Shown here in pieces: positions 22,035-27,396 of a stretch of 64,000 nt of DNA; the stretch's first letter is position 1; the number at the start of each line of letters is the position of its first letter. The notes under the pieces are model-generated. The model was not told the DNA's origin. It did not search any database and worked only from the letters and a program-made list of their open reading frames with translations. Source of the stretch: Nitrospirota bacterium. Lineage in GTDB: Bacteria > Nitrospirota > Nitrospiria > Nitrospirales > Nitrospiraceae. The stretch lies in assembly GCA_040755395.1 (NCBI GenBank), contig JBFMAX010000005.1, forward strand, positions 124,001-188,000, written 5' to 3'. The position numbers were made by a program, and so were the translations under genes.

Positions 22035-25000
22035 TCACGAACACCCGTTCGTGGCGCCGCAGTTCACGCACTTGAGGCACGTCCCGTTCCGGACCATGGT
22101 GAACTGCTTGCACTCGGGGCAGGGATCGCCCTCATAGCCCTTCAGCCGCGCCGTGTCGCGAATCGCCGTGACGGTGAGCGATTCGCGCGTGATCTCCACC
22201 TGGTGCGCCAGGGCATGCCCGTTCCCTTGGCCGTTCCCTCTCGCACCGTTTCCCGCGTCATGCCGGGAGGGAAACTTGTCTGCGATGATCGAGGCCGACT
22301 GGAGCGCCTGGATGTCCGCCTCCTCGTCGGTGCACTCCGGGTCCTGGTCGTCCTTCTTCACCGAATCCATCCGCAGGTCCTCGGGCTGCACCTGCGCCAG
22401 GTCGTAGCGATCCAGGTAGGTCACGGCCAGCTCGCGGAAGATGTAGTCGATGATCGACGTAGCCATCTTGATCCGGTCGTTGAGCTTGACCGGTCCGTTC
22501 GGCTCGAACCTGGTGAAGACGAAGGCTTCGACGAACTCTTCCAGCGGCACCCCATGCTGCAGCCCCAGCGAGATCGCGATCGCGAAGCAGTTCATCAGGC
22601 TCCGGAAGGCCGCCCCCTCCTTGTGCATGTCGAGGAAGATCTCGCCCAGCGTCCCGTCTTCGTACTCGCCGGTCCTGAGATAGATCTTGTGGCCCCCGAC
22701 GATCGCCTTCTGCGTGTAACCGTTCCTCCGCGCCGGCAACGGCCTCCGCTTCGCCAGGTACCGGTAGCGCACCAGCACCCGCTCGGTCATTTTTTCGGCG
22801 GCGCTCAACACGTCGGCGCTCGGTTCGACTGCCTTTCCGCTGTCCGAGGAGGCGTTCAGCGGCTGGCTCAGCTTGGACCCGTCGCGATAGAGCGCGACGG
22901 CTTTCACCATGCTCCTCCACGCCAGGAGGTACGCGGCCTTCACGTCCTCCACCGTGGCGTCGGCGGGCATATTAATGGTCTTGGAGATCCCTCCGCTGAT
23001 GAAGGGTTGCGCGGCCGCCATCATGCGAATGTGGGCCTCGATTGGAATGTAGCGTTGCCCGATCCGGCCGCACCGGTTGGCGCAATCGAACACCGGCAGG
23101 TGTTCCGCCTTGAGGTGCGGCGCGCCTTCCACGGTCATGGCGCCGCAGCAATAGTCGTTGGCCGCGGCGACCTCCTCCTGGGTGAAGCCCAGCGCTTTGA
23201 GCATGTTGAAGTTGGGCTCGTTCAGTTGCGCGTCCGTGAAGCCCAGCTTCTCGCGGCAGAACTCCTCGCCCAGCGTGAACTTGTTGAAGGCGAACTGGAT
23301 CTCGAACGCCTGCTTGAGCGAGTGTTCCAGCCGCTCCAGCGCCGCGTCGTCGAACCCTTTCTCCTTCAACGTCTCGTGATTGATGAACGGCGCGCCCTTG
23401 AGCGTCTGCCGCCCGATGCAGTAATGGACGATGTCCTGCATCTGTGTCTCCGTGTACCCGAGGGTCCTCAGCGCCGGCGGAAGGCTCTGGTTGATGATCT
23501 TGAAGTAGCCTCCGCCCGCCAGTTTCTTGAACTTGACCAGCGCGAAGTCCGGCTCGATGCCGGTCGTATCGCAATCCATCACCAACCCGATCGTGCCGGT
23601 CGGCGCGATGCACGTCACCTGGGCGTTGCGGAACCCGTAGGCCGTGCCCAGTTCCAATGCCCGATCCCATGCCCGCCGGGCCGCCAGCAGCAAGTCGGGC
23701 GGACAATGTTCCGGCTGGATGCCCATCGGCTTGATCGTCAGCCCTTCATATTCCTCCGGCGGCGCATTGTAGGCTGCGCGGCGGTGGTTTCTGATCACCC
23801 GCAGCATGTGCTCGCGATTTTTCGCGTAGCCGGGGAAGGGCCACAGCTCGGCAGCCATCTCGGCGGAAGCGCTGTAGGCTTCGCCGGTCATGATGGCCGT
23901 GATGGCGCCGCAGATCGCCAAAGCCTGAGGCGAATCATAGGGAATGCCTTGCCGCATCAGGATGGTGCCCAGGTTGGCGTACCCCAACCCCAATGTCCGG
24001 AAGATGTAGCTCTTTTCCGCGATCGCGCGGCTGGGGAACGAGGCCATCAACACGCTGATCTCCAGCACGATGGTCCAAAGGCGCACCGCGTGACGGAAGG
24101 TCTCCAGGTCGAACCGTCCGTCCGGCGTGAAGAATTCGGCTAAGTTGATGGACGCCAGGTTGCACGCCGTGTCGTCCAGGAACATGTACTCGCTGCAGGG
24201 ATTCGACGCGTTGATGCGCCCGTCCTCCGGGCAGGTATGCCATTCATTGATGGTCGTGTCGTATTGCGTGCCGGGATCGGCGCAGATCCAGGCGGCCCAG
24301 GCGATCTTGTCCCACAGCTCCCGCGCCTTGACGACTTTGCAGACCTTGCCGTCCGTCCGCCGCTTGAGCTGCCAGTCGCCGTCTTTTTCCAGCGCCTCGA
24401 AGAACGCATTGGGGATACGAATGCTGTTGTTGGAGTTCTGCCCCGACACGGTCTGATAGGCCCTGCCGTCCCAATTCGTGTCGTATTCATGAAAGACGAA
24501 ATGCGTGAAGCCCTGCTGGGCATAAGCGAACATGCGGTCGATATAGGCTTCCGGCACGTGGTCGCGCCGAGCCGCGTGGATGGCCTCCTGGAGCGCCGGA
24601 TTCTTCTTGGGATCGATCTCCACTTTCATCTGGCCGTCGCCGCCGACCACATGACAGGCCTTCAACACCGCGTTCAATCGTTGTGCGCATATTTTTGAAC
24701 CGGTGACCATGGCGGCCACTTTCTGCTCTTCGATCACCTTCCAGTCGATGAACTCCTCGACATCCGGATGGTCCAAATCCAGGCAGACCATCTTGGCCGC
24801 TCGCCGGGTCGTCCCGCCCGACTTGATCGCGCCGGCAGCCCGGTCCCCGATCTTCAGAAACGACATCAGCCCCGACGACCGGCCGCCGCCGGACAGCGGC
24901 TCTCCGTCGCCGCGCAGCCTGGAGAAATTCGTCCCCGTTCCGCTTCCGTACTTAAAGAGGCGCGCCTCGCGGACCCACAGGTCCATGATGCCGTTCTCGT

Positions 25001-26693
25001 TGACCAGATCGTCCTCGATGGACTGGATGAAACAGTTGTGCACGACGACATTGTTGGAGAGGTACTGTCCGCTTTCCGTTTGAATGTCGAAGACCGGCTG
25101 CACTCCCATCGCCTCGATCCGGACAATGACTTCCTCTCGCAATGCCGGCAGTGTCTTACCCGGAAACCGATCGGAGCAGGCCGCCTCAAGCTTTTCACGC
25201 TTGTCTTCCGAAACGAACCCGATCAGGTCCCGGTAACGAGCCCGCGCTTCCGCATAGCCGATCGAAACGAAGTACGGCGTCCTCCGATTTTCCCGGGTCT
25301 CGACGCCTCGCTGCACTCGCGCATAGACGCCCAGGTTCAGCAACAGCGCCTGGATGCCGAGGGCCAGCGGCGCCGAGGTCGTGGTCAGAACGATATCGGC
25401 GGTCCGGGAGGCGCGGGATCTGAGACGGACCGTGCCATCCGCCTGGAACAAAGCCAAGAGATAGGCGGCTAGCACTTGCAGTCCGGAAGACTGGATCGCC
25501 TTCGGCACGGACCACTCTTCGCTTTCCCTCAGCAGTTCGTATTTCTCGACAAAAGGTCTGAGCGCTTCGCCGTACAGCCGGATGCAGCGGACATCGAGCC
25601 CGGCGGTCCGGGTCTCCACGGACCGAACGTGGTAGTGCACCCCGTCGAAGACGCGCAACACCCGTTCCAGAACGAAATTGAACTCGGCCTTGTCGATGGT
25701 CATGAATTCAAGCGTCAGACCGCGGTTGGTGCCCCGCTCGTACCGGCCGACAAAGCCGTCTCCCTGCAGCCAACCGACCAGCGCGGCCTCGTCCACGTCA
25801 TGCGGCTTCGACTGCTCGGTCACCGCCGTCCCGGTCGCCAGCGTGAGCCGCATGCCCGGAGCCAGTTCGTCCACCCTCCGCCAGGCGCCGGTTGAACGCC
25901 GCGCCTCGAGCGCATAGACGAGATGATCGCCTGTCGCCTCGACGCAGACGCCGTTTTTGAGCACGATCTTGAAGACGGGCTTCTCGCCGTTTGCCTTGAC
26001 GGCGACCACCTTTGTCGTCCCCGAACCCTTGCCCGCGTCGGAGCGGCGACCGTCGAACACTTCCAGCCCGACCAGGCCCTTCGTCACGATGTCTCCGATC
26101 GGCATGGGCCCCTGCGGCGTCGAGACCAAAGCGTGGTAGGGTTGGCACGCGTGGGGTTGCGGGTGTTCGAACGCGTTGGCGGCCTTGACCACTTCGCGGG
26201 TCTTGGGATCGACGTAGTAGTGGCCTTGGGCGGGGCCGGTCAGACCATAGGCGTAATGGAGCCCGGTGTTGAACCATTGGGGCGAATTGGGCGCCGCCAT
26301 TTGGCGCGCGAGCATGTAGCAGATTTCGTCATGAAAGGCGGCGGCGTCTTCGGCCGACTTGAAGTAACCGTAGTTCTTGCCCCAATGCGTCCAGCACCCG
26401 GCCAGCCGTTCGAAGACCTGGCGCGCATCGCGCTCTCCGCCGAGAACCGGCTTTCCATCCGGTCCGGTCAGTACCTTCCCGTCCGGCCCGATTTGGGGCA
26501 CGCCGGCTTTACGGAAATACTTTTGCGCCAGAATGTCGACGGCCAATTGAGACCACCGCTCCGGAACCTCGATGTTGTCCAATTTGAAGACCGTGGACCC
26601 GTCGGGGTTGCGGATTTCCGACGACCGCTTCACGAACTTCATCCCCTCGTAAGGGCTCTGCCCGCTCCGCGTGAATTTCCGTTCAATTCTCAC
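22035..26693 (-). CDS. nrdJ: Adenosylcobalamin-dependent ribonucleotide reductase (class II) with an intein
   Basis: The 1552-residue reading frame encodes a 1181-residue NrdJ interrupted by a 371-residue intein (residues 183-553). NrdJ reduces ribonucleotides to deoxyribonucleotides with B12 and needs no oxygen. Key residues are visible. The redox cysteine follows the intein (CFIQSIEDD). The thiyl-radical cysteine sits in SNPCSEY with its Asn and Glu partners. The second redox cysteine is in [13 protein letters not shown]-terminal zinc ribbon (CPECKQF ... CLKCVNCG) is typical of the long class II form. Start is GTG 26693 with GGGAGGG ahead. Without splicing the enzyme would be inactive. Confidence 0.95.
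25035..26147 (-). mobile_element. LAGLIDADG intein inside nrdJ
   Basis: The insertion begins at C183 after PQPHA and ends at VVHN with C554 as the first residue of the second extein. It has a block A start [19 protein letters not shown], a block B-type ATGDHLVY and two LAGLIDADG-like helices ([12 protein letters not shown] near 304-315 and [15 protein letters not shown] near 408-422). A C-terminal [20 protein letters not shown] closes the splicing domain. All residues needed for protein splicing (Cys1, His in block B, penultimate His, Asn, Cys+1) are present, so it looks active. The endonuclease part keeps both acidic motif ends. Confidence 0.93.
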
Positions 26694-26812
26694 GATATCC
26701 CTCCCTGGAAAGCTGCCGATAAAGGTGGTCCCGACCGCCTGTGCTCGACTAGAACTTTGAAGCCATCCGGCTGGAAAACCGACTGTCCGATTCAGTAAGC
26801 CTGTCCGGGATG

Positions 26813-26860
26813 CAGCTACATATAGCGATTCGATTTTTTTGTCAATACTAAATATTGTGG
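26813..26860 (-). promoter_or_regulatory. nrdJ promoter with two NrdR-type boxes
   Basis: Two 16-base boxes lie at 26813-26828 and 26845-26860, separated by 16 bases. Their cores are CTACATATAG and CTAAATATTG; each matches the NrdR palindrome core at nine of ten positions. Between and within them, on the minus strand, is a TTGACA -35 element (26845-26840) and a weaker TATATG -10 element (26824-26819). Repressor binding would block the promoter. The spacing of about three helix turns is the usual NrdR arrangement. Confidence 0.72.
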
Positions 26861-26941
26861 GTTTACTGGGGAAAACGAGGAAAACCTGGGGATAGCGAAA
26901 TCAGCCGATTGGCTCTGGCTCAGACCGATTTGTTCACGAGG

Positions 26942-26950
26942 TTATCCACA
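26942..26950 (+). promoter_or_regulatory. Perfect DnaA box upstream of nrdJ
   Basis: TTATCCACA, the strict DnaA consensus, stands alone about 80 bases upstream of the second NrdR box. A single box does not make an origin. DnaA control of nrd genes is known in E. coli. Confidence 0.45.
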
Positions 26951-27015: not shown

Positions 27016-27396
27016 TCAGAACACGGCGCGACCGAGTTTCAGCGTCGCCTCCTCAACGCCCTCAATCGGTACAAACCGGCCCGCCACGCCCAGCACCACG
27101 ACCCGAACGTCCAATACCCGCGTTTCGAACAGGCTCACCAGCCCCCAGTTTCGCCTGACGGTGTTCGGACGCACCACACCCGCGATCAGCCGCTTGCCCT
27201 GCGTTCTGAAGACAGAGCGGATGAGATTCTGTTCTCGGCTCGGCGCAGTTTGATCCATGCGCTCGAGCGCCTGGGAGAGTTTCGCCTCGAGGAAGAGGAG
27301 GTAGTCGTCGGTGGTGGGATTTGTCGCCGCCAACGCGACGCAGACGCCCAGGAACGCGGTCAGAAGAGCTAAGGCGAGGGTCTTCGTGTCGTCCAA
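27016..27396 (-). CDS. DUF4359-like exported protein
   Basis: A 126-residue protein with one N-terminal hydrophobic segment (about residues 7-24), followed directly by TNPTTDDYLLFLEAKLSQ. The 'TNP-x-x-x-DY' start after a signal anchor is typical of DUF4359 proteins. The C-terminal part, ETRVLDVRVVVLGVAGRFVPI, is predicted beta. The start appears to be TTG 27396 with GGGGTG ahead. The function of the family is unknown. Confidence 0.55.
   Translation of the reverse strand: MDDTKTLALALLTAFLGVCVALAATNPTTDDYLLFLEAKLSQALERMDQTAPSREQNLIRSVFRTQGKRLIAGVVRPNTVRRNWGLVSLFETRVLDVRVVVLGVAGRFVPIEGVEEATLKLGRAVF

Follow-up and report, generated by a model that had tools for sequence, protein, structure and literature searches.

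Within the 64-kb window, which is the whole stretch of Nitrospirota DNA analysed here, the nrdJ gene occupies positions 22035–26693 of the minus strand and encodes a class II (adenosylcobalamin-dependent) ribonucleotide reductase (RNR) with a LAGLIDADG intein. The gene had been named as nrdJ in the original prediction, and this identity is confirmed by a match to NF005736 (1948.8 bits, over cut-off) and by the Pfam domains Ribonuc_red_2_N, Ribonuc_red_lgC, and TSCPD, together with intein domains. Translation starts at a GTG codon behind the Shine–Dalgarno sequence GGGAGGG (26699–26705). A small gene of the DUF4359 family (27016–27396) lies directly upstream on the same strand, and because it ends at 27016, the sites described below are located in a proper intergenic region. 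The nrdJ leader contains no B12 riboswitch or known RNA element according to an Rfam scan, and folding of the 5′ UTR gave no structured leader (z = −0.23). Inteins with LAGLIDADG domains are present in both class II RNR genes of the genome, with one in nrdJ and two in the second gene; the nrdJ frames of relatives are mostly about 1,200 codons long, with a few longer ones (L007 and L029), and most of them, given this length, probably lack an intein.

The nrdJ promoter contains a perfect −35 hexamer, TTGACA (26840–26845, minus strand), and an inferred −10 element, TATGTA (26817–26822, minus strand), which is placed by its 17-nt spacer. The −10 element is weak, with three of six positions agreeing with the consensus (TATATT is found in some relatives), and was missed by a strict sigma-70 scan. 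Two 16-bp candidate NrdR boxes are arranged around these elements on the minus strand. The promoter-proximal box 2 (26813–26828) spans the −10 element, and its core (26816–26825) reads CTACATATAG on the plus strand and CTATATGTAG on the minus strand; the distal box 1 (26845–26860) adjoins the −35 element, and its core (26848–26857) reads CTAAATATTG on the plus strand and CAATATTTAG on the minus strand, stopping 2 nt short of the −35 hexamer. The order on the minus strand is thus CAATATTTAG–TA–TTGACA–(17 nt)–TATGTA, where the TATGTA hexamer falls within CTATATGTAG. The boxes are separated by a 16-bp linker, which sets the cores 32 bp apart from start to start; each core carries a single mismatch to CWATATATWG, and both boxes are imperfect palindromes.

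The original prediction had placed two sites, each agreeing with this core at nine of ten positions and 32 bases apart, at 26813–26860, covering the −10 and abutting the −35 element. Direct reading of the sequence bears out both matches and the distance, the interval is the exact extent of the two 16-bp boxes, and the promoter overlap holds, with a −10 element that is weak and inferred. The two boxes are the sole matches to CWATATATWG with at most one mismatch in the window, where 0.43 would be expected, and at least two such matches were reached by 7 of 100 shuffled windows; the spaced pair occurs once in the window and in none of the 100 shuffles. A scan of the entire 4.1-Mb genome, which had been proposed as a check, returned nrdJ as the only pair with at most two mismatches. 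With up to three mismatches allowed, two sites are found, namely nrdJ (two mismatches) and a pair on contig C4 (three mismatches).

The NrdR repressor and its candidate targets

The prediction also depended on the presence of the repressor gene, and the genome carries one copy of nrdR (TIGR00244, E = 2e-59, over cut-off), located on contig C6 directly after a gene that, read by eye from its sequence, appears to be glyA. The encoded protein is composed of zinc-ribbon and ATP-cone domains, can be aligned over its length with NrdR chains of solved structure (E = 1.7e-42), and retains the key residues of the family, including the zinc cysteines Cys3, Cys6, Cys31, and Cys34, as well as Asp15, Arg17, the RRRR stretch at positions 26–29, and Arg37. 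In the Streptomyces coelicolor NrdR–DNA structure, Asp15 and Arg17 read conserved GC pairs, and an NrdR tetramer binds two boxes about three helix turns apart, with the conserved GC pairs at positions 9/18 and 40/49 in a 31-bp register (PMC9110341). The spacing of the nrdJ boxes and the invariant C and G positions at their core ends agree with this structure and support the view that the boxes serve nrdJ as its NrdR operator, with NrdR as their ligand, a reading to which we assign a probability of about 0.93, with both binding and repression predicted from sequence.

On the basis of established NrdR biochemistry, NrdR loaded with dATP and ATP would bind both boxes, with one pair of zinc ribbons on each box. 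With the boxes three helix turns apart on one face of the DNA, the repressor would bend it, and the bound protein would bury the −35 and −10 elements of nrdJ, blocking RNA polymerase. A fall in dATP would allow ATP to fill the outer site, converting NrdR into a non-binding oligomer and permitting the transcription of nrdJ.

Other potential targets were sought across the genome. Strong single sites on contigs C2, C6, C8, C16, and C26 lack a convincing partner 31–32 bp away, and the contig C4 pair was rejected as an NrdR target, as it adjoins neither an RNR gene nor any other known NrdR target. A second large RNR locus (L122:3435-7655) encodes a class II enzyme with two inteins and has no NrdR boxes. 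In a search for a class I-type large subunit, no match passed the cut-off, and the weaker hit fell on this second class II locus; no class III RNR was found in the genome. Because the second class II gene lacks boxes, and neither a class III enzyme nor a class I-type subunit above cut-off was detected, nrdJ appears to be the genome's single target with tandem boxes.

Conservation of the predicted operator region in Nitrospirales

The nrdJ upstream regions of relatives were drawn from two source collections, whose named records are mostly from Nitrospira and other Nitrospirales, which assigns the window's genome to the Nitrospira family; in these collections, it is the sole species of its genus. 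Among 91 upstream regions from Nitrospirales, the best box pair at 31–32 bp reaches a score of 16 of 20 or more in 91% (dinucleotide shuffles, 0.29%) and of 15 of 20 or more in every region (shuffles, 2%); these counts are generous, as two of the pairs are doubtful (L077 and L126) and some genomes are present in both collections, and they are not independent, since the species are related. The removal of regions with at least 75% identity left a non-redundant set of 40 regions, all with a spacing of 32. In this set, both boxes have an invariant C and G at their core ends (40/40), TTGACAA is equally invariant (40/40) at a fixed distance from box 1, and the information per column averages 1.58 and 1.81 bits in the boxes, compared with 0.12–0.32 bits in the flanks. 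The distance from the boxes to the start codon ranges from about 90 to 370 nt, and the spacing between the boxes remains at 31–32 bp. In one genus of the family, this spacing is 31 bp, with one base missing between box 1 and the −35 element and the 17-nt promoter spacer retained. The expectation that the boxes would recur upstream of nrdJ in related species is therefore upheld, as a sharp island of conservation with 31–32 bp spacing extends throughout Nitrospirales, and nrdR was found in all 37 Nitrospirales genomes tested.

Upstream of the boxes, in the nrdJ direction, lies a perfect 9-mer DnaA box, TTATCCACA (26942–26950, plus strand), 93 bp from the start of box 1. The shuffled expectation for this 9-mer in the window is 0.06, and the genome contains eight copies, one of which adjoins dnaA. 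The same DnaA box is located 91–93 bp from the start of box 1 in 65 of 90 relatives, and at 101–104 bp, about one turn further, in six more. A second, proximal DnaA-like site, CTATCCCCA (26887–26895, minus strand), lies 38 bp upstream of box 1; it is degenerate in the window's genome, and 61 of the 90 relatives have a site at 37–39 bp, where the sequence is yTATyCACA. The conserved distal box suggests, with less certainty than for NrdR, a second input to nrdJ from replication initiation, the action of DnaA being proposed from the position of the box and its conservation. DnaA-ATP represses nrdAB in E. coli (PMC11853086), and by analogy with that operon, joint control of nrdJ by DnaA and NrdR is plausible. 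A stronger version, in which NrdR does use the boxes but only tunes a promoter controlled mainly by DnaA, would be compatible with the operator reading, and draws on the E. coli precedent, on the scarcity and constant position of the distal box, and on the second site in most relatives. Nevertheless, a sister family keeps the NrdR boxes while a distal DnaA box was not seen at the corresponding position, and the degeneracy of the proximal site in the present genome also argues against DnaA dominance, which we consider unlikely.

Far less probable is the proposal that the conserved stretch is simply a strong nrdJ promoter, with a chance likeness to NrdR boxes in AT-rich, −10-type sequence. Some bases of box 2 also belong to the −10 element, so promoter constraint could explain part of the conservation of this box, and TTGACAA is conserved as strongly as the boxes themselves. 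However, no promoter element is expected upstream of the −35 hexamer, where box 1 is located, and yet the C and G of this box are invariant; in box 2, the outermost C and G fall outside the −10 hexamer. The pair also keeps its spacing at 31–32 bp, and none of the shuffled windows reproduced it. Moreover, in four relatives (L035, L055, L085, and L086), the promoter has shifted, with TTGACA just before box 2, a TATAGT −10 element just after it, and box 2 itself in the spacer, yet the box pair stays 31–32 bp apart; because the pair remains where the promoter has moved, the boxes are under selection separately from the promoter hexamers. The use of the tandem palindrome by a transcription factor other than NrdR, which the slight departure of the sites from the strict consensus might allow where NrdR binding is a prediction, is the least probable alternative, as the palindrome, the spacing, the target gene, and the co-occurring nrdR all fit NrdR specifically, and the DNA-contacting Asp15, Arg17, and RRRR residues are intact.

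Beyond Nitrospirales, 25 relatives of nrdJ were compared, and nrdR is present in six of seven with boxes versus 6 of 18 without. This association is modest, with a Fisher p of 0.03 at threshold 16 and non-significant values at thresholds 15 (0.10) and 17 (0.16). The single box-bearing relative in which no nrdR was found (L099) is a metagenome-assembled genome of unstated completeness.

Comparison with known operators and a related module

The predicted nrdJ operator closely resembles the S. coelicolor nrdRJ operator (PDB 7P3F). In both cases, the target is a class II RNR gene, the repressor has zinc-ribbon and ATP-cone domains, and the promoter is overlaid by a pair of palindromic boxes that lie roughly three turns apart and whose cores begin and end in a conserved C and G. 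In S. coelicolor, however, nrdR and nrdJ share a transcript and the boxes are in a 31-bp register, whereas here nrdR is located elsewhere, beside glyA, the register is 32 bp, and a DnaA box lies upstream of the operator. E. coli nrdAB, which is under NrdR, with NrdR-box linkers of 15–16 bp in that organism (PMC12176259), shares the two boxes, the 16-bp linker, and the overlap with the promoter, as well as DnaA control there and a DnaA box here. In contrast to the present locus, nrdAB encodes a class Ia RNR, carries an additional downstream box, and is also subject to other regulators, and the distal DnaA box 93 bp upstream is a feature that sets nrdJ apart from it. In Pseudomonas aeruginosa, the class II genes nrdJab are repressed aerobically by NrdR and have two NrdR boxes in their promoter (PMC4409342). 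There, NrdR governs three RNR classes, of which nrdJab is one, whereas here nrdJ is the sole tandem-box target found, and the box-less second class II RNR is a further difference.

NrdR control through paired boxes is a well-known kind of gene control, of which the nrdJ operator would be a further case. No paper describing the control of nrdJ by NrdR in Nitrospira was found in the open-access literature searched, but priority cannot be claimed, because a GTDB-wide NrdR-box profile (PMC9110341) may already cover the phylum. The observation that a DnaA box keeps its distance to the NrdR operator across the family is new to the present analysis. For the order to which the main nitrite oxidisers belong, the sites provide a precise, testable map of how dNTP supply is regulated, and the fixed arrangement of DnaA and NrdR sites at a class II RNR gene makes the coupling of replication initiation to dNTP synthesis testable outside proteobacteria.

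An nrdJ-type promoter was also observed upstream of a small ORF of 57–59 amino acids resembling a zinc ribbon, which has its own promoter of this type in 3 of 147 genomes searched, all of the Nitrospira family. In this promoter, two NrdR boxes spaced by 32 bp accompany TTGACA, and a DnaA-like box precedes them; it is found at L141:1932-1973 (ORF 2026–2199), L144:1376 (ORF 1498–1677), and from position 1277 onward in the reverse complement of L145. The module is not present in the window's genome, and no relative of the small ORF was found on viral contigs. We put forward tentatively, and regard as somewhat doubtful, a composite reading of the Nitrospiraceae class II RNR promoter, in which DnaA, at a fixed site about 92 bp upstream, and NrdR, at the promoter itself, would together couple B12-dependent dNTP synthesis to the initiation of replication, and the small-ORF promoter would place a non-RNR gene, and possibly a defence operon, under dNTP sensing. 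In two of the three genomes, the small ORF is followed by a CBASS operon encoding an HNH–SAVED effector, a cyclase, and an E2-like protein, and the third is without CBASS. A conserved hairpin with a T-run, for which Rfam returned nothing, lies between the small ORF and the CBASS operon, and it may end transcription ahead of the operon.
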